From Desulfobulbaceae bacterium (GTDB taxonomy: Bacteria; Desulfobacterota; Desulfobulbia; Desulfobulbales; SURF-16): a stretch of 33,335 nt of DNA. The notes below the pieces were generated by a model that did not search any database, was not told where the DNA came from, and was given only the letters and a program-made list of their open reading frames with translations. Both the position numbers and the translations under genes were made by a program. Shown in pieces: positions 3,010 through 33,335 of this stretch. How positions within the stretch are numbered: the first letter of the stretch is position 1; the number at the start of each line of letters is the position of its first letter. The DNA lies in contig JAQIBE010000281.1 of the NCBI GenBank assembly GCA_027859235.1, positions 1-33,335 on the forward strand, read 5' to 3'.

Positions 3010-4008
3010 TTGGAGATTGAAGAAATGGAGTTAGAATTTAATGATGTGGTAGAACAGGAACAGATTGATTTTGGAATGATGAGTAGTAGTGATTTCATAA
3101 AACAAGACATACCAATACAAAGGAATATCTTATCAACTTGGTTGAAAGAAGGTTCAATCAATATGGTTTCAAGTAATCCTGGTTCATTGAAAACGTGGTA
3201 TGTGATGGGTATTTGTAAGTCAATATTAACTGGTGAGAACTTTGGTAAATGGGACGTTGAGAAAGAAGATATAAACATCCTTTTTATAGACGGTGAATTA
3301 CACCAATCAAACTTGAAAACAAGATTGGTTCAAATGAACCTTAAAGAGAATGGTGATAGGTTCCATATTCTATGTAAAAGTATGGTTGATGACAAGGTAA
3401 GAGGTGAGTTTGATTTAACTTATAAGAGTTTTAGAGATTATGTGAAAAACACCTGTATTGAAATGGATATAGGTTTAGTTATCTTTGATAATATGTCTTC
3501 ACTTTGTATAGGGTTAGACGACAATGTGAAACATAATTGGGACTTAATAAGTCAATACTTCCTTGAACTTCGTCATAAAAATATTTCATCTATTATTGTA
3601 GAACATAATAACCGGAATTCCAGTTATAGGGGGAGTTCATCTAAATTAGATAATTTAGATACACATACTGTTATCAAACGACAATCTATGGATAAGAACG
3701 TCATAAACATTTCATTTGGTAAGTATCGGTATGAGTTGGATAAGTCAGTTATGGGTACTCATAAGTTTGTTATGAGTATGACTGATAATGTTATGGAGTG
3801 GAAAGAGTTAGATAGTGATAGTTTTGGTAGAAATAAAAAAGTTTTAACTCTGTTGGGTGAAGGGTTAAAACAGGATGAGATAGGTAAGTTGATTGAGGTG
3901 GATAGGAGTTATGTAAGTAAAATTAAGAGTTGGAATATCACACAGGATTACTTTACTAAATCTAATCAATTTACGGATACAGGTAAGGGTTATTATAGAG
4001 TGAGTTAA
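3010..4008 (+). CDS. RepA-like/AAA_25 P-loop ATPase with C-terminal HTH; start may be ATG 3025 rather than TTG 3010
   Basis: NMVSSNPGSLKTWYVMG (Walker-A-like), INILFIDGELHQSNLKTRL, IGLVIFDNMSSL, SIIVEHNNRNSSYRGSSSKLDNLD match the RepA/AAA_25 pattern. C-term LKQDEIGKLIEVDRSYVSKIKSW looks like HTH. TGGAG at 3011-3015 is placed as an SD for ATG 3025. Confidence 0.75.
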   Translation: MEIEEMELEFNDVVEQEQIDFGMMSSSDFIKQDIPIQRNILSTWLKEGSINMVSSNPGSLKTWYVMGICKSILTGENFGKWDVEKEDINILFIDGELHQSNLKTRLVQMNLKENGDRFHILCKSMVDDKVRGEFDLTYKSFRDYVKNTCIEMDIGLVIFDNMSSLCIGLDDNVKHNWDLISQYFLELRHKNISSIIVEHNNRNSSYRGSSSKLDNLDTHTVIKRQSMDKNVINISFGKYRYELDKSVMGTHKFVMSMTDNVMEWKELDSDSFGRNKKVLTLLGEGLKQDEIGKLIEVDRSYVSKIKSWNITQDYFTKSNQFTDTGKGYYRVS

Positions 4009-4101
4009 GAGTGTATTCTATTGTTGGTGTTGTCATTACACCCTACCCCTACAATCCTTTGGATGTAGGGTATAACTCCATAATTAGAATATAGAATGTG
4101 T

Positions 4102-4177
4102 GTGTGAATAACTCTTTATATAGGGATTCACACTTCACATTAGTTGTGTGTGAATGATTAAAAGGGGTGATTCACAT
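4102..4177. repeat. two tandem inverted-repeat units, 46-bp period
   Basis: GTGTGAAT-N16-ATTCACAC (4102-4133) and GTGTGAAT-N14-ATTCACA (4148-4176), between convergent genes. Confidence 0.7.
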
Positions 4178-4642
4178 TCACTCACCTATGAATTGATTAT
4201 TCTTAAATTCACCTACATACTTTTCACCATTAGGAGAGGTGAATCTTCCGTGTCCATTAAATTGATTATTCTTAAAATCACCTACATACTTTTCACCAGT
4301 AGACATGGTTAATTTCCCGTATCCATCCATATTACCATTCTTAAAATCACCTATATATTTCATACCATCAGGAAAGGTTATTGTTCCGTATCCATCAGAC
4401 TTACCATTCTTAAGTTCACCTACATATTCCATACCATCAGGAGAGATTAATCTTCCGTTTCCATCAAATTTACTATTCTTAAAATCACCTACATATTTCG
4501 TACCATTAGAAACTATGAATGTTCCGTGTCCATTACTACAATTACCCTCAATACAAGTACCACCATAAGAACTTACAGGTAATAGACACAACATTGTTAG
4601 TATAATTATAAAATCTGATTTCTTCATTTTTAACTCCCTCAA
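4178..4642 (-). CDS. exported MORN-repeat protein
   Basis: N-terminal signal peptide MKKSDFIIILTMLCLLPVSSYGG (start may be the second Met, 4627). About five MORN units (YVGDFKNxxFDGxGRxxxPDG...), encoded by a ~69-bp DNA period. Confidence 0.85.
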   Translation of the reverse strand: MRELKMKKSDFIIILTMLCLLPVSSYGGTCIEGNCSNGHGTFIVSNGTKYVGDFKNSKFDGNGRLISPDGMEYVGELKNGKSDGYGTITFPDGMKYIGDFKNGNMDGYGKLTMSTGEKYVGDFKNNQFNGHGRFTSPNGEKYVGEFKNNQFIGE

Positions 4643-4824
4643 AGGTAATTACTTTATCAGTTAAGTATGTATATGACAAAACATAACAAATAAAACATCT
4701 AACAACTATATACTTTTTTTGAATATCAGTTTTTGTAATAAACTGACATTCATCAAACACTCTATATTGTAGTAATATCAACAAGTTAGTCCATTATCAC
4801 CGACTAAACCCTAAAACAAACCTA

Positions 4825-4853
4825 TTGACAATGTCAGTTTGTGAGGATATTCT
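4825..4853 (+). promoter_or_regulatory. sigma70-type promoter for the small recombinase, with overlapping palindrome
   Basis: TTGACA (4825-4830) - 17 bp - TATTCT (4848-4853). TGACA-A-TGTCA palindrome at 4826-4836. Confidence 0.55.
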
Positions 4854-4898
4854 CTCATTATATGATATTGAAAATCAGTTAAATCAAGAGGTGATGAT

Positions 4899-5456
4899 AT
4901 GAAGGTTTATCCAATCAAAGACGAATTAAAGATTAAAACTCTCAAAAAGTTGTTGAGTAATGAACCCAGAAACCTTTTACTTTTTACTCTTGGTTTGAAC
5001 TCTGGGTTGAGAATGGGTGATATTCTAAAATTGAAGGTTCAAGATGTTCTAAACAAAGGAGTGGGAGATAAGGTATATCTGGTTGAGGGTAAAACCAAAA
5101 AACAGAACTACTTTATTATCAATACAGAGGTTTTAAGGGTGATTGAGTTGTATTTGGATACATTACCTACCCTGAACCCTGAATCCTTTTTATTTCCATC
5201 AAGGAAGGGTTCTACACCCCTGTTGGTTGAGTCAGTCAATCATATGATTAAAAAATGGTGTAAAGAGATTGGGATTAAGGAAAATGTAGGGTGTCATACA
5301 TTACGAAAAACCTTTGGATACTTCCAACATAAGAAGTTTGGGGTATCTGTTCCAGAACTTATGGTTAGGTTCAATCATTCATCCCAAGACACGACATTGA
5401 GATACATAGGGATTGACTCAAAGGTGGTTAATCTAATGTTGATGAACGAAATCTAA
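4899..5456 (+). CDS. minimal (catalytic-domain-only) tyrosine recombinase, 185 aa
   Basis: Catalytic motifs SGLRMGDILKL (R), EGKTKKQNYF (K), CHTLRKTFGY (HxxR), NHSSQDTTLRYIGI (H...Y). No N-terminal core-binding domain. SD AGAGGTGATG. Confidence 0.85.
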   Translation: MKVYPIKDELKIKTLKKLLSNEPRNLLLFTLGLNSGLRMGDILKLKVQDVLNKGVGDKVYLVEGKTKKQNYFIINTEVLRVIELYLDTLPTLNPESFLFPSRKGSTPLLVESVNHMIKKWCKEIGIKENVGCHTLRKTFGYFQHKKFGVSVPELMVRFNHSSQDTTLRYIGIDSKVVNLMLMNEI

Positions 5457-5489
5457 TCAGAGGTTAATTAGTCACTTAACTCTGATTAG
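5453..5489. repeat. inverted repeat with 8-bp spacer overlapping the recombinase stop codon
   Basis: CTAATCAGAGGTTAA-TTAGTCAC-TTAACTCTGATTAG (one-nucleotide indel between arms). Confidence 0.75.
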
Positions 5490-5703
5490 ACCTCTGGAGG
5501 TTTTATGTTAGAATAAAAAATGGTAAAACATCATTCCGAAAATGAACCCGATAAATATCTCTGACATTTGAAGACCTTTTTTCTATGGGTTAATATTTAA
5601 CCACTTCAAAAAAAGAAATCCTTGAATCTCTAACCATAATCTTATAGTTATTAGATTACTTTTTGAAATGATCCGAATACTCATTCACCTAAAAGTAAAA
5701 AAT

Positions 5704-5771
5704 AGTCCCCTATACAATCGTTAAGGTGGTTCCCCAACCTTTAACCTTAACGATTTTAGGGGACTTTTTTT
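5704..5771. terminator. long Rho-independent terminator
   Basis: AGTCCCCTatacAATCGTTAAGGT...ACCTTAACGATTttaGGGGACT followed by TTTTTTT. Confidence 0.85.
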
Positions 5772-5886
5772 GTTCCAGATAAGATATTTATAACAGAACT
5801 ATCCTATATCACCCATAAAGAAAGATGTTTTTTTCAAGAAAAAAGACAAACAACTATACCTAACATTTTGATTGATGAATCACCTC

Positions 5887-7188
5887 TTACTTAGTAACTG
5901 GTTCATCCACCAAAATCTTGTAGTGTTCTTTACCCTTATCTTGGGTTAGTTCCTTTCTCATTTTTTCAACTTCTATGTGTCCGTAATGTTGTTCAATAAA
6001 GTGAACACTACACCCCAGGTTTTTACTTAAAGTAAAAACATCTACACCACTATATAACCTGTATGTTGAGTAGGTATGTCTTAAACTGTAATAACAAACT
6101 TGTTTATCAACCTCATCCAATTTGGTGTCTTTTAACATTCTATTCCAGTATTTGTAATATACTGTTCTGTTCAAAGGTTCACCGGTATCGTTATCACAGA
6201 ATACCCAATCGTTGGGTTTGGTATGTTTTGAAAGTTTCCATATCTTTTTATACAAGTCAGGACGTCTACCTATTACAACTCTCTTTCCTGTCTTCCCTCT
6301 TTTAAGGTTAATGTAAAGACAGGGGTTCTTATCTGTTGAAGTCGGTGGTTTTACACTCAAATCCTCCCATTTCAACTGTCTTCCTTCTCCAAACCGTAAA
6401 CCAGTATTACACAATAAAATAATGAAATACCTAATGAACTCCTTTTGTTCCTTCTCCTTAGGTGGACAGGATTTCCCCCAAGTCCTTAGATGTAGATAAA
6501 TCGTCTTCCATTCTTCATTTGTTAACTCTTGACGGGAATGGATGAGTTTATTTTTACTCAATTTGTTCTTAGGGAATAGAGGTTTGGACTTGTTGTCTAA
6601 ATAATTTCTTTCAAAACAAAAATTATAGAAATTATTTATAGTTGAACTCTCATTTAAGAGGGTTAACATCCTAACCGGACGTTTATTTTTAGAGTATGAG
6701 GGATTGTTTATTCGGTGATTGAAATACTCTTCAAACTTGTATGAAGGAATGGAAGACAACTTTGTCTTCTCACCAACAAAGTAGAGAAAATGTTTCATTT
6801 GACTTCGTATTGTTACCCACCTACCTTCTGTTATACCTTGATTAGGGTTACTACTTACTTCTAACTTTCGGTGTTCAAGATACTTATCCACCAGTTCCTT
6901 AGAGGTATACTCAAATATCACCTCGTTGTTTCTAATCTTGGACTTCAAGTCAAGGTAGATTTCCTCACTTAGTTCTATCCCTTCTTGGAGATTTTCAGTT
7001 CTTAGTGATTTTCTGTAATATTTTTGATTTTCACGAAACCAGACACTCATCTGGTAAACCAAACCGGATTGGGTAGTCCTGAACACTTTAACACGTCCAC
7101 CTAATACATCGTGTTCATCGGTTTTGAAACTACCCTTGTTCTCTCTTGGTTTTCGTGGTTTGGACTTTCGGGTGGGAATAGAACTCAT
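5887..7188 (-). CDS. tyrosine-type site-specific integrase (433 aa)
   Basis: LLCNTGLRFGEGRQLKWEDL (R), LKRGKTGKRV (K), YYSLRHTYSTYRLYSGVDVFTLSKNLGCSVHFIEQHYGHI (YxLRH...HY). Adjacent to the att core in guaA. Confidence 0.92.
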   Translation of the reverse strand: MSSIPTRKSKPRKPRENKGSFKTDEHDVLGGRVKVFRTTQSGLVYQMSVWFRENQKYYRKSLRTENLQEGIELSEEIYLDLKSKIRNNEVIFEYTSKELVDKYLEHRKLEVSSNPNQGITEGRWVTIRSQMKHFLYFVGEKTKLSSIPSYKFEEYFNHRINNPSYSKNKRPVRMLTLLNESSTINNFYNFCFERNYLDNKSKPLFPKNKLSKNKLIHSRQELTNEEWKTIYLHLRTWGKSCPPKEKEQKEFIRYFIILLCNTGLRFGEGRQLKWEDLSVKPPTSTDKNPCLYINLKRGKTGKRVVIGRRPDLYKKIWKLSKHTKPNDWVFCDNDTGEPLNRTVYYKYWNRMLKDTKLDEVDKQVCYYSLRHTYSTYRLYSGVDVFTLSKNLGCSVHFIEQHYGHIEVEKMRKELTQDKGKEHYKILVDEPVTK

Positions 7189-7332: not shown

Positions 7333-8883
7333 CTATTCCCACTCAATGGTTGCCGGCGGCTTGGATGAAACATCAAGCACCACACGATTTACCCCAACCA
7401 CCTCATTGATAATGCGGTTGGAAATACGGCCAATGAGGTCATAGGGTAAGCGTGACCAGTCGGCAGTCATGGCATCAAGACTATCCACGCAGCGCAGGGC
7501 AATAACGTTTTCATAGGTGCGTTCGTCGCCCATAACCCCAACCGTCTGGATGGGGAGGAGTACGGCAAAGGATTGCCATACCTTGCTGTACCAGCCGCTG
7601 GATTTCATCTCTTCAAGGACAATAACATCCGCCTTTCTGAGGATGTGCAAACGGTCGCCGGTGATTTCTCCCATGATGCGGATGCCAAGTCCTGGTCCCG
7701 GAAAGGGCTGACGGAATACAGCCTCGTCAGGGAGTCCGAGCTCAAGGCCGAGGAGACGCACCTCATCCTTAAAGAGCTCTCTGAGCGGTTCAATGAGGTC
7801 AAGCTTCATGATATCCGGCAACCCGCCAACGTTATGGTGGGACTTGATCACCGTGGCACCGGCCAGGGCCACCGATTCGATGACATCGGGGTACAGGGTG
7901 CCCTGGGCCAGATATTTGACATCGCCGAGTTTCTTTGCCTCTTCTTCAAAGATCTTGATGAAGCCGTAGCCTATTTTCTTGCGTTTGATTTCCGGGTCGA
8001 CAACACCCTCCAGTTCTGCAAGAAAATAGTCTTCAGCATCAACATCAATAACCTTGAGTTTGGTGGTGTCGCTGAAGAATTTCAGGAGTGAACCTGTTTC
8101 TCCCGTGCGCATGAGACCGTTATTCACATAGATACAGACCAGTTGATCGCCGATGGCCTTATGGATGAGTGCTGCGGTAACGGCTGAGTCAACACCGCCG
8201 GAAAGGGCGCAGAGCACCTTGTCGGTTCCTACCTTTGCCTGGATGGCCGCCACAGTGGTGTCCACAAAGGAGCCCATGGTCCAGTTGCCTTCACAGTTGC
8301 AGATGCCAAAGAGGAAGTTCCGCAGGATCTCATTACCGATGAGGGTGTGGGCAACCTCCGGGTGGAACTGTACACCCATGAGTTTCTTTTCGGTGTGGCG
8401 CATGGCAGCGTAGGGAGAATGCTCGCTCTCGGCCGAGGCCTCAAACCCCTGTGGCAATTTCTCGATACGGTCACCATGGCTCATCCACACCTGCAGAGAG
8501 GTCTCGGCTGTTTCCAGACCGGAGAAGAGTCCTTCCTCATATTTAATATCAAGATGGGACTTGCCAAATTCACGTTTGTCGGCCTTTTCAACAACACCGC
8601 CCATGGATTGTATCATGAGCTGGGCGCCGTAACAGATGCCGAGGATGGGGATGTCTTGAGAGAATATCCTGGCATCAATGGACGGGGCATCTGTATCGTA
8701 TACCGAGCAGGGGCCGCCGGAGAGGATTATGCCCGTGGGCTTATGCTCAAGGATGGTGTCAAGTCCCGTGGTGTAGGGATGGATTTCACAATATACCTTA
8801 TGTTCACGAACTCTTCGGGCAATGAGCTGCGTGGTTTGCGAGCCGAAGTCAACGATGATTATTTTTTCACTATGGATATTCAT
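7333..8883 (-). CDS. guaA: GMP synthase (glutamine-hydrolysing)
   Basis: Class I amidotransferase ILGICYGAQLM and GVQFHPEV; PP-loop ALSGGVDSAVTA; C-terminal SSKPPATIEWE. Confidence 0.98.
   Translation of the reverse strand: MNIHSEKIIIVDFGSQTTQLIARRVREHKVYCEIHPYTTGLDTILEHKPTGIILSGGPCSVYDTDAPSIDARIFSQDIPILGICYGAQLMIQSMGGVVEKADKREFGKSHLDIKYEEGLFSGLETAETSLQVWMSHGDRIEKLPQGFEASAESEHSPYAAMRHTEKKLMGVQFHPEVAHTLIGNEILRNFLFGICNCEGNWTMGSFVDTTVAAIQAKVGTDKVLCALSGGVDSAVTAALIHKAIGDQLVCIYVNNGLMRTGETGSLLKFFSDTTKLKVIDVDAEDYFLAELEGVVDPEIKRKKIGYGFIKIFEEEAKKLGDVKYLAQGTLYPDVIESVALAGATVIKSHHNVGGLPDIMKLDLIEPLRELFKDEVRLLGLELGLPDEAVFRQPFPGPGLGIRIMGEITGDRLHILRKADVIVLEEMKSSGWYSKVWQSFAVLLPIQTVGVMGDERTYENVIALRCVDSLDAMTADWSRLPYDLIGRISNRIINEVVGVNRVVLDVSSKPPATIEWE
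7334..7345. repeat. att core repeat, guaA end
   Basis: TATTCCCACTCA, overlapping the last codons and stop of guaA. Confidence 0.85.
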
Positions 8884-30692: not shown

Positions 30693-30904
30693 GCGTGAAT
30701 CTGTTTTTTGCACATCCAGGATGTCTCTGTTTGCCCCCTTTGTTGACCTCCTGGGGCTGGCCCACGTTTCCCTTGCATCTTCTGCTGCCGACCCCCTACT
30801 ATTAGTTATGGCCGGACGACCAGGACCTGTCCCGGCCGACCGCTGCATTGTATGTGCTTGCAGCGCTGAGGCAGAACAGGAAAGAGGGTGGTGGCTAAGG
30901 AGAA

Positions 30905-33335
30905 ATGATGACTCAAGAACAAGACCGGGATTTTTTTCAACTGTTTGCGACGATCAGGTCGCAGCTCAAGACAATAATCTATGATCAGGACGATGCGGTT
31001 GATGAGGTTGTTGATGGACTGATTCATATGTCGTGCAGGCCGGAAGAGTCTCAGCCGCGGGGAATTTTCACCTTTCTGGGCCCCGATTCAGTGGGGAAAA
31101 TATATCTGGCGCGGGGGCTTGCCGAATTCCTCGAAGGGTACTCGTATGTCATCCATCTCGATATGGAGCAGTATAGCGATCCTGAAACTATCTTTCCACT
31201 GCTTGGCGTGTCAGGTGGCCAGGAAGGAGTCACGGAAGGCGACCTGGTCAGGAGTGTCCGTGAACATCCGCGCTCCATCATTATTTTTGAAGGAATAGAA
31301 AAGGCGGATAACCAGCTGCACCTGGCACTTTTAAACCTGCTCTCCAGTGGCGATCCTGATTCCGGGGTGAGTTTCAGGGAGACGATTATCATTTTCACCT
31401 CCACCCTTGGCAGTGCCTTATACAAGAACCGTGATTTTCTGGAGGGTTTCAGCAAAAACAGGGTACAGACCCAGGATCTGGCCATAAAGGTTCTTGCAAG
31501 AGAAAAAAAAATTGCCTTCGATATGATCCAGCCAGCCATTGCCCCGAAACTTCTGGAGGTCATGGGCCGGAATTTTATCATGCTGTTCAACCGCTTGAGC
31601 CTGGAGTCCATGGTCCGGATCGGCTGTCAATCTCTGGATGTGCATGCCAAGAAATTTGGCGATAAAAGCGGTATAACGTTCCAGTTCAGGGATGTGGAAC
31701 AATTGATGGCCCTGCTTATCCTGTCACTCGGCGCCCCTATCAATGCAAAAAAGATTAAGCAGCAGCTGCCTGAGGCGCTTCTCGGCAGGGTCACCAGATA
31801 TGTCAGGGAAGGGCAGGTCTTTCCGCAAAAGGTCGTGTTTAAGGTATCGAAGCAGGCCTCTGAGTTTATAGCCGGTCTGCAGGAGAGAAAAGAGGACCTT
31901 CTCCATCTGTATAAGAAAAATGCAACGATAAGTCTGGCGTGGAAGGAGTATATGCGGGGCAGCACGCTGTTTTTAAGTGTTGCCAAGGGGCGGGTGGAAA
32001 AAGTCTCTGCGGGCGAAGAATTAATAAAAGAGGTGCGGCCCTGCATCGAATTTTCAACCATCGGTTTTGCTGATATTGCCGGCAATAAGGCAACGAAGGA
32101 GACGTTAAAGCAGATCATAACAGTGCTCAAAAATCCGGGTCTGGTCACGCGGTTTGCTATAGACATGCCCAAGGGCCTGCTTATGTATGGATCTGCAGGC
32201 GTTGGTAAAACCATGCTCAGCAAGGCCTTTATCCAGGAAATGGGACTGCCCTTTGTGTATGCCTCGCGGACGGATCTCTTTGATCCCGATTATATCAGCA
32301 AGGCCTACCAGGAGGCGCGGGAGTATGCCCCAGCCATTGTCTTCCTCGATGGTATTGACGTCAAAGGGCTCCTTGCGGGAGTCCTTACAACCATGCCGGA
32401 CGATCAGCTGGTCCTGGAACTGGACAGTGTTAAAACGGATCCCGCCAGCCTCGTGTTCACCATTGCCACAGCCCTGAACCGGCAGGAGGTGAGTCCGGTC
32501 CTTATTGCTCCGGACCGGATTGACACCTTTGTCGAGGTGCCCGAACTGGATAGAGAGGCCCGGCGCTTCTTTATAGATAAGATTCTCAAGAAACCCAACG
32601 ACGGCAAGATAAATGTGGAAAGGGTGATCCGCTATATTTCCGGGATGAACGGCTATGATCTGCAGCGTATCGGTAAGGAGGCTTCCCTGTATGCTATCCG
32701 TAACGGGTTGGAATGTCTGACCGAAGAGATTCTGATCGAGCAGATTAATATTATCAAGTATGGCTATAAGCTTGAGAAGAAACATATGCGTAATCTTGAC
32801 GAGGAGCTCAGGATCACCGCCTATCACGAGGCGGGTCACGCCGTACTTTCTTTTCTTCTTCTGCCGGATATCAAGATTGAACAGGTGACTATTGCCCCCA
32901 GGCTGCAGGTGCTGGGGTTTATCTCCTATACCCTGGAAGATTTTCCCGGCAATATTTCCAAGGATGAGATCTTTCATAACTCTTGTGTCTTGATGGCCGG
33001 CAGGATTGCCAGCATGAAGAAGTTCGGCGGGCGCGGGCTTAATACCGGGGCAGCCAACGATCTTGAACAGGCAACGCAACAGGCCTATGCCGCAGTGGCA
33101 AGTCTGGGTATGGATGAAACCATAGGGTATGTCCATACGGATACCCTGTCCCAGAATGTCAGTCGGCAGATTTTTCTCTCCACGGTGGAAAATCAGGTGC
33201 AGTATTGGATTAAAGACGCAACAGAAAAGGCAGTGCAGCTTGTTGACGAACACTGGCCAAAGATAGAAAAACTGGCGGCCGTTCTCATTCAATATGAAAT
33301 TGTTGATGGTGACGACCTGGCGCGGATCATGAAGG
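30905..33335 (+). CDS. ClpA/B-D2-like AAA domain fused to an FtsH-like AAA + M41 zinc metallopeptidase domain; runs off the window end
   Basis: Translated by hand, 810 codons open from ATG 30905 (or 30908). FTFLGPDSVGKIYLARGLAEFL and IIIFEGIEKADNQLHLALLNLL (ClpB D2-like). FADIAGNKATKETLKQIITVLKNPGLVTRFAIDMPKGLLMYGSAGVGKTMLSKAF, IVFLDGIDVKG, ITAYHEAGHAVLSFLLLP, LNTGAANDLEQATQQAYAAVASLGMDETIGYV (FtsH/M41). Confidence 0.88.
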   Translation, partial: MMTQEQDRDFFQLFATIRSQLKTIIYDQDDAVDEVVDGLIHMSCRPEESQPRGIFTFLGPDSVGKIYLARGLAEFLEGYSYVIHLDMEQYSDPETIFPLLGVSGGQEGVTEGDLVRSVREHPRSIIIFEGIEKADNQLHLALLNLLSSGDPDSGVSFRETIIIFTSTLGSALYKNRDFLEGFSKNRVQTQDLAIKVLAREKKIAFDMIQPAIAPKLLEVMGRNFIMLFNRLSLESMVRIGCQSLDVHAKKFGDKSGITFQFRDVEQLMALLILSLGAPINAKKIKQQLPEALLGRVTRYVREGQVFPQKVVFKVSKQASEFIAGLQERKEDLLHLYKKNATISLAWKEYMRGSTLFLSVAKGRVEKVSAGEELIKEVRPCIEFSTIGFADIAGNKATKETLKQIITVLKNPGLVTRFAIDMPKGLLMYGSAGVGKTMLSKAFIQEMGLPFVYASRTDLFDPDYISKAYQEAREYAPAIVFLDGIDVKGLLAGVLTTMPDDQLVLELDSVKTDPASLVFTIATALNRQEVSPVLIAPDRIDTFVEVPELDREARRFFIDKILKKPNDGKINVERVIRYISGMNGYDLQRIGKEASLYAIRNGLECLTEEILIEQINIIKYGYKLEKKHMRNLDEELRITAYHEAGHAVLSFLLLPDIKIEQVTIAPRLQVLGFISYTLEDFPGNISKDEIFHNSCVLMAGRIASMKKFGGRGLNTGAANDLEQATQQAYAAVASLGMDETIGYVHTDTLSQNVSRQIFLSTVENQVQYWIKDATEKAVQLVDEHWPKIEKLAAVLIQYEIVDGDDLARIMK

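Follow-up and report, generated by a model that had tools for sequence, protein, structure and literature searches.

An FtsH-related double-AAA protein of the Desulfobulbaceae with degenerate ATPase motifs and an intact M41 zinc protease site

The gene and its domain layout

The window, by which we mean the whole 33,335-nucleotide stretch of Desulfobulbaceae DNA that was analyzed, is an entire contig (C14), and its last gene encodes a protein with two AAA modules followed by an M41 peptidase domain. As the earlier note had described, the reading frame is open at the contig end. It has no stop in 810 codons. A full orthologue close to the window protein (L007) is just one residue longer, and the gene is therefore practically complete. 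Of the two ATG codons at its beginning, the second, at 30908, is more likely to be the start than that at 30905, because both the spacing from the AAGGAG sequence and the starts of orthologues fit it better. The features of the locus are as follows.

30897..30902, + strand: Shine-Dalgarno sequence AAGGAG, with a spacing of 5 to 30908 and of 2 to 30905
30905..33335, + strand: AAA_2-AAA-M41 coding sequence of 810 codons, with about one residue and the stop codon missing
30950..31459, + strand: module 1, a ClpB/ClpA D2-like AAA module (residues 16-185; Pfam AAA_2 and PDB profile)
31460..32056, + strand: linker and remains of the D2-small domain (residues 186-384), the least conserved part, in which the Arg finger of module 1 has been lost (Arg to Val219)
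32057..32779, + strand: module 2, an FtsH-like AAA module with its lid (residues 385-625; Pfam AAA)
32792..33334, + strand: peptidase M41 domain (residues 630-810; Pfam, AF2 model and Foldseek)

All three Pfam domains (AAA_2, residues 51-183; AAA, 425-546; Peptidase_M41, 632-808) exceed their curated cut-offs. Module 1 matches the PDB profile of ClpB D2 (E 9.5e-29), and residues 385-810 are homologous to the FtsH/AAA protease family (E 1.8e-49 to 6gcn), so that the fusion of a ClpB-D2-like AAA module to FtsH/M41, first proposed from the letters of the sequence, is upheld by both Pfam and PDB profiles. The absence of a transmembrane segment, claimed at the same time, agrees with the hydropathy of 19 sequences: none was found, the maximum 19-residue Kyte-Doolittle mean being 1.60 in the window protein and no higher than 1.88 in 18 orthologues. 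A predicted structure (AF2) of residues 385-810, from an alignment that included ordinary FtsH rows, has a mean pLDDT of 77.7 and a pTM of 0.52; most of the M41 domain lies at pLDDT 80-98, and the stretch following Walker B is poorly modeled. The best Foldseek match of this model is apo-FtsH (3kds, E 1.5e-29).

Motor and protease motifs within the family

The motifs on which the activities of the protein would depend lie at the following positions.

31079..31102, + strand: module 1 Walker A, GPDSVGKI, with the Thr/Ser lost
31277..31297, + strand: module 1 Walker B, IIIFEGI (within IIIFEGIEKA), with the catalytic Glu replaced by Gly
32189..32212, + strand: module 2 Walker A, GSAGVGKT, intact
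32276..32293, + strand: LFDPDY, where the pore loop of FtsH is deleted, with six residues of MFVGVG missing
32339..32359, + strand: module 2 Walker B, VFLDGID, with the Glu replaced by Gly483 (GAT GGT at 32348-32353)
32507..32518, + strand: second region of homology, APDRID, with the first Arg finger lost (Ala535, 32507) and the second kept (Arg538, 32516)
32825..32839, + strand: zinc-binding and catalytic motif HEAGH, its HExxH invariant in 44/44 sequences
33059..33061, + strand: third zinc ligand, Asp719, in NDLEQAT, invariant in 44/44 sequences

The relatives search, covering 58 genomes, yielded 18 full-length or near-full-length orthologues at 54-82% identity, all with intact reading frames, and because these carry the same substitutions, the latter are not due to chance. 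With an N-terminal profile, the gene was detected in 42/258 genomes of the host's class, in single copy save for one split gene, and in 7/241 genomes from another class of the same phylum. One sequence from a genome outside the host's class (G394) groups within the window's clade. In a Nitrospirota sample, a set without a positive control, 0/198 genomes had the gene. A scan of genome contigs for the HEAGH pattern returned matches dominated by ordinary FtsH and is uninformative about distribution. An ordinary FtsH-sized paralogue of 610-628 amino acids is found at three loci (L175, L177 and L206), a few genes upstream of the double-AAA gene and on the opposite strand.

The motif tally covers 30 distinct full-length sequences from the window's clade, and 44 sequences once those of all three groups (this clade, the sister class, and the proteobacterial homologues) are counted. 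In module 2, the catalytic Glu of Walker B is Gly in 30/30 clade sequences, the first Arg finger is Ala or Glu in all 30, and the sensor-1 Asn is absent in 27/30, at a position where the alignment is loose; the second Arg finger (Arg) and the Walker A Lys, Lys435, are each kept throughout the 30. In module 1, the position of the catalytic Glu is occupied by Ser, Ala, Asn, or Gly in every clade sequence, the Walker A Thr/Ser is gone in 24/30 and the sensor-1 Asn in 29/30, and the Arg finger, which is Arg in ClpB and the proteobacterial homologues, is replaced (by Val219 in the window protein). The counterpart of the ClpB GYVG loop in this module has no aromatic residue.

Most of what the earlier note had read from the single sequence thus stands: the degenerate GPDSVGKI and IIIFEGIEKA of module 1, the intact GSAGVGKT and altered VFLDGID of module 2, the altered first Arg of APDRID, lost in 30/30, and the intact HEAGH and NDLEQAT, whose zinc ligands are invariant in 44/44. 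Its account of the pore motif needs revision, because the FVG motif is not merely altered: six residues (FVGVGA in FtsH) are deleted relative to FtsH structures. Of the two DG/EG changes, whose conservation among orthologues the earlier note had proposed to check, the DG of module 2 is conserved (30/30); in module 1, the loss of Glu is conserved but not the Gly itself, the position being variously G, A, S, or N.

Purifying selection on the protein is strong. For three pairs of sequences, dN/dS is 0.007-0.25 across all domains and is lowest in the lid (0.007-0.06) and the M41 domain (0.04-0.11). Mean pairwise identity follows a similar order, with the lid of module 2 the best conserved part (83.5%), followed by M41 (72%), the remainder of module 2 (69%), module 1 (56%), and the linker (50%). 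Interrupted or shortened copies occur in one genus of the host's order (G217, L138; G221, L142; G218, L185), and the copy in G217 is broken by an in-frame stop, carries HESGH, and has Asn at the position of Asp719. Gene decay is the probable explanation of these copies, and the gene would therefore be dispensable in that genus, a point that weighs against the mode of action favored below.

Relatives, gene neighborhoods, and the order of losses

Among sampled Pseudomonadota, homologues are found in 3/399 genomes, and a further four lie within one family. These proteins (L187-L189, L192-L195) are of ~915-940 amino acids and share 31-34% identity with the window protein over ~807 residues (E 1e-132 to 1e-160). 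In 7/7, Walker A, Walker B, sensor-1, and Arg fingers are canonical in both modules; the pore loop of module 2 is already short, and the loop of module 1 retains an aromatic residue (KGF or KTY). Sequences from the sister class are intermediate, keeping the module 2 DE in 6/7 and the module 1 Glu in 4/7, with the sensor-1 Asn and the first Arg finger absent. The Pfam AAA score falls from 142 bits in the proteobacterial homologues to 58.6 in the window protein and the M41 score does not fall (89-96 versus 117), so only the motors have eroded.

In a tree of module 2 and M41 with FtsH as the outgroup, FtsH splits off first (100/100), then the proteobacterial set (97/96), and then the Desulfobacterota-type set (100/99); the rooting is tentative because the branches to FtsH are long. 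On this tree, Glu must have given way to Gly twice, at the base of the window's clade and separately in G805. Orthologues with a canonical DE Walker B, which the earlier note had weighed as a sign that the substitutions might be sequencing errors or specific to a strain, are absent from the window's clade but present in the sister class and among the proteobacterial homologues. This confinement to distant relatives points to an ancestral state and directional loss rather than to an artifact. As judged by sequence comparison, then, the losses are lineage-wide, stepwise, and partly convergent, and we infer that the ancestor was an ATP-driven soluble double-ring M41 protease, a form that survives in some proteobacteria.

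The operon partners that the earlier note had suggested looking for did not emerge in the window's clade, where no neighboring gene is conserved in ~20 neighborhoods. At the proteobacterial loci (L196-L202), the gene for the M41 homologue is adjoined in 7/7 cases by YbjN-like proteins, encoded either by two genes downstream or, where the operon is divergent, as a single tandem protein, and all seven loci also carry a protein of 440-485 amino acids, without a Pfam family, that has two hydrophobic stretches near the N terminus. The two versions of the locus are related by profile, the membrane protein weakly so, and just one of the neighboring proteins tested exceeds the Pfam YbjN cut-off. Profiles of the YbjN-like and membrane proteins found neither in any window-type neighborhood examined. 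We infer that the ATP-driven form may be tethered to the membrane via a separate protein and that the ATPase-dead form no longer belongs to that system. Examples of the gene set beside an ATPase-intact M41 homologue are at L200:5304-7768 and L198:11247-13714, and it looks like an undescribed proteolytic system in its own right.

A role in defense was considered and set aside, PADLOC giving generic AAA matches alone, as was carriage by mobile elements, with no relative in viral contigs in a search with the middle region and none in plasmids at E 1e-60. Proteins of Pseudomonas megaplasmids (H2-H15) annotated as "AAA family ATPase" match residues 398-915 of the proteobacterial homologue at 28% identity, the matches beginning before the AAA module, and may represent another FtsH-like variant. 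Elsewhere, the window may carry an integrated element at about 3010-7188, to judge from two tyrosine-recombinase-like integrase open reading frames (4899-7188) near guaA (7333-8883).

Proposed mode of action and comparison with known systems

The reading that we favor, with reasonable though far from complete confidence, is that of a cytosolic M41 zinc metalloprotease built on a scaffold of two AAA modules that neither hydrolyzes ATP nor threads substrates. The loss of the catalytic residues of both motors beside an intact protease site makes ATP-free digestion probable. The earlier reading of a soluble zinc protease, with AAA parts that bind nucleotide without hydrolyzing it, likewise fits all of the comparative data, from the clade-wide losses to the invariant protease site. 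The two AAA-like modules would form a ring scaffold, probably hexameric if the oligomeric state of FtsH is a guide, which the lid of module 2, so strongly conserved, would hold together. Unfolded, short, or specifically docked clients would enter the protease chamber passively and be cleaved at the zinc site without ATP turnover. Module 2 probably still binds nucleotide, given that its Walker A Lys is invariant, at most statically and as a structural or allosteric ligand; binding by module 1 is probably weak or absent. Because Lys435 is conserved in every sequence, nucleotide is suggested to matter, and some nucleotide-driven cycle may remain.

Alternatively, the protein could be a regulatory subunit that enters mixed rings with a second AAA protease, either canonical FtsH or a different one; the partners would hydrolyze ATP and the window protein would add a protease site or a docking surface. 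The host genome has three further M41 genes, FtsH proteins of plants assemble into mixed complexes (PMC8197885), and the invariant second Arg finger could complete a neighbor's site. However, the window protein has no membrane anchor and, unlike canonical FtsH, has an additional ring at its N terminus, a very long branch parts FtsH from its family, and its clade lacks a conserved neighbor gene; we regard mixed rings as unlikely. We consider it about equally unlikely that the protein is still ATP-driven, with module 2 hydrolyzing slowly via another base as a conformational switch. Residual ATPase activity through such a non-canonical base is conceivable, since the Walker A Lys and Thr, the Walker B Asp, and the second Arg of this module are invariant or nearly so, but the catalytic Glu, the first Arg finger, and the pore loop have been lost together and the sensor-1 motif has changed. 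It is decidedly improbable that the protease site is inactive as well, leaving a protein that serves only as a scaffold or zinc-binding adaptor: pseudo-proteases are known among plant FtsHi and nothing specific to this family supports the idea, whereas HExxH and the Asp are invariant in 44/44 and M41 is under strong purifying selection. A sequencing error, chimera, or decaying pseudogene, for which the position of the gene at a contig end in a fragmented assembly might be cited, is ruled out for practical purposes by the 18 orthologues from other assemblies, which have the same losses at 54-82% identity and intact frames, and by dN/dS values far below 1.

AAA proteases are defined by the coupling of ATP hydrolysis to degradation. 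In the ATP-independent protease that we favor, this coupling has apparently been dismantled stepwise while the protease stayed under selection; for the M41 family, the literature searched describes only the opposite loss, the dead protease of plant FtsHi. The chances seem to us evenly balanced that this is a new class of compartmental zinc proteases that act without ATP, derived from an undescribed ATP-driven soluble double-ring M41 protease, in which living intermediates record the order of motor decay. On this view, shortening of the module 2 pore loop, seen in every lineage, came first; the first Arg finger and sensor-1 were lost next, and the Walker B Glu last, on two independent occasions. 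Comparison of intact, intermediate, and dead forms would allow tests of which losses uncouple proteolysis from ATP, and could show the role of rings without a motor. No account was found of the architecture of the window protein, or of an ATPase-dead, protease-intact relative of FtsH, in a literature search that left subscription journals and preprints mostly outside its reach, so novelty is unproven.

With the FtsH family (M41; AFG3L2, YME1), the protein shares the order of an AAA module then M41, the HEAGH motif, and the zinc-binding Asp. Unlike FtsH, it has no transmembrane anchor, catalytic Glu, first Arg finger, or FVG pore loop, its N terminus is an extra ClpB-D2-like module, and its family forms a clade of its own (100/100) on a long branch; with NCBIfam FtsH_fam, it scores 211.9 bits against a cut-off of 600. 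The resemblance to ClpB/ClpA is limited to D2, no N domain, D1, or M domain being matched, and in contrast to ClpB D2, module 1 has lost the Walker B Glu, sensor-1 Asn, Arg finger, and GYVG loop. The proteobacterial double-AAA M41 proteases have the same architecture from end to end and the short pore loop of module 2, but differ in their canonical ATPase motifs, ~120 extra N-terminal residues, and YbjN-like and two-transmembrane neighbors. The plant FtsHi pseudo-proteases lose HEXXH (PMC8197885); they too are relatives of FtsH with one activity dead, whereas the window family has lost the ATPase and kept HEXXH. A functional parallel may lie in LonC of Meiothermus taiwanensis, which binds six nucleotides per hexamer, has no ATPase activity, and degrades unfolded, but not folded, proteins (PMC3391209). 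Degenerate AAA motifs beside an intact protease site are common to both, by its description in the case of LonC (PMC3391209) and by sequence in that of the window family, although LonC is a Ser-Lys protease with one AAA-like module and the window protein is a zinc M41 protease with two. The window protein, a soluble relative of FtsH, probably cuts proteins without consuming ATP, a mode of action that LonC represents among proteases of an unrelated family.
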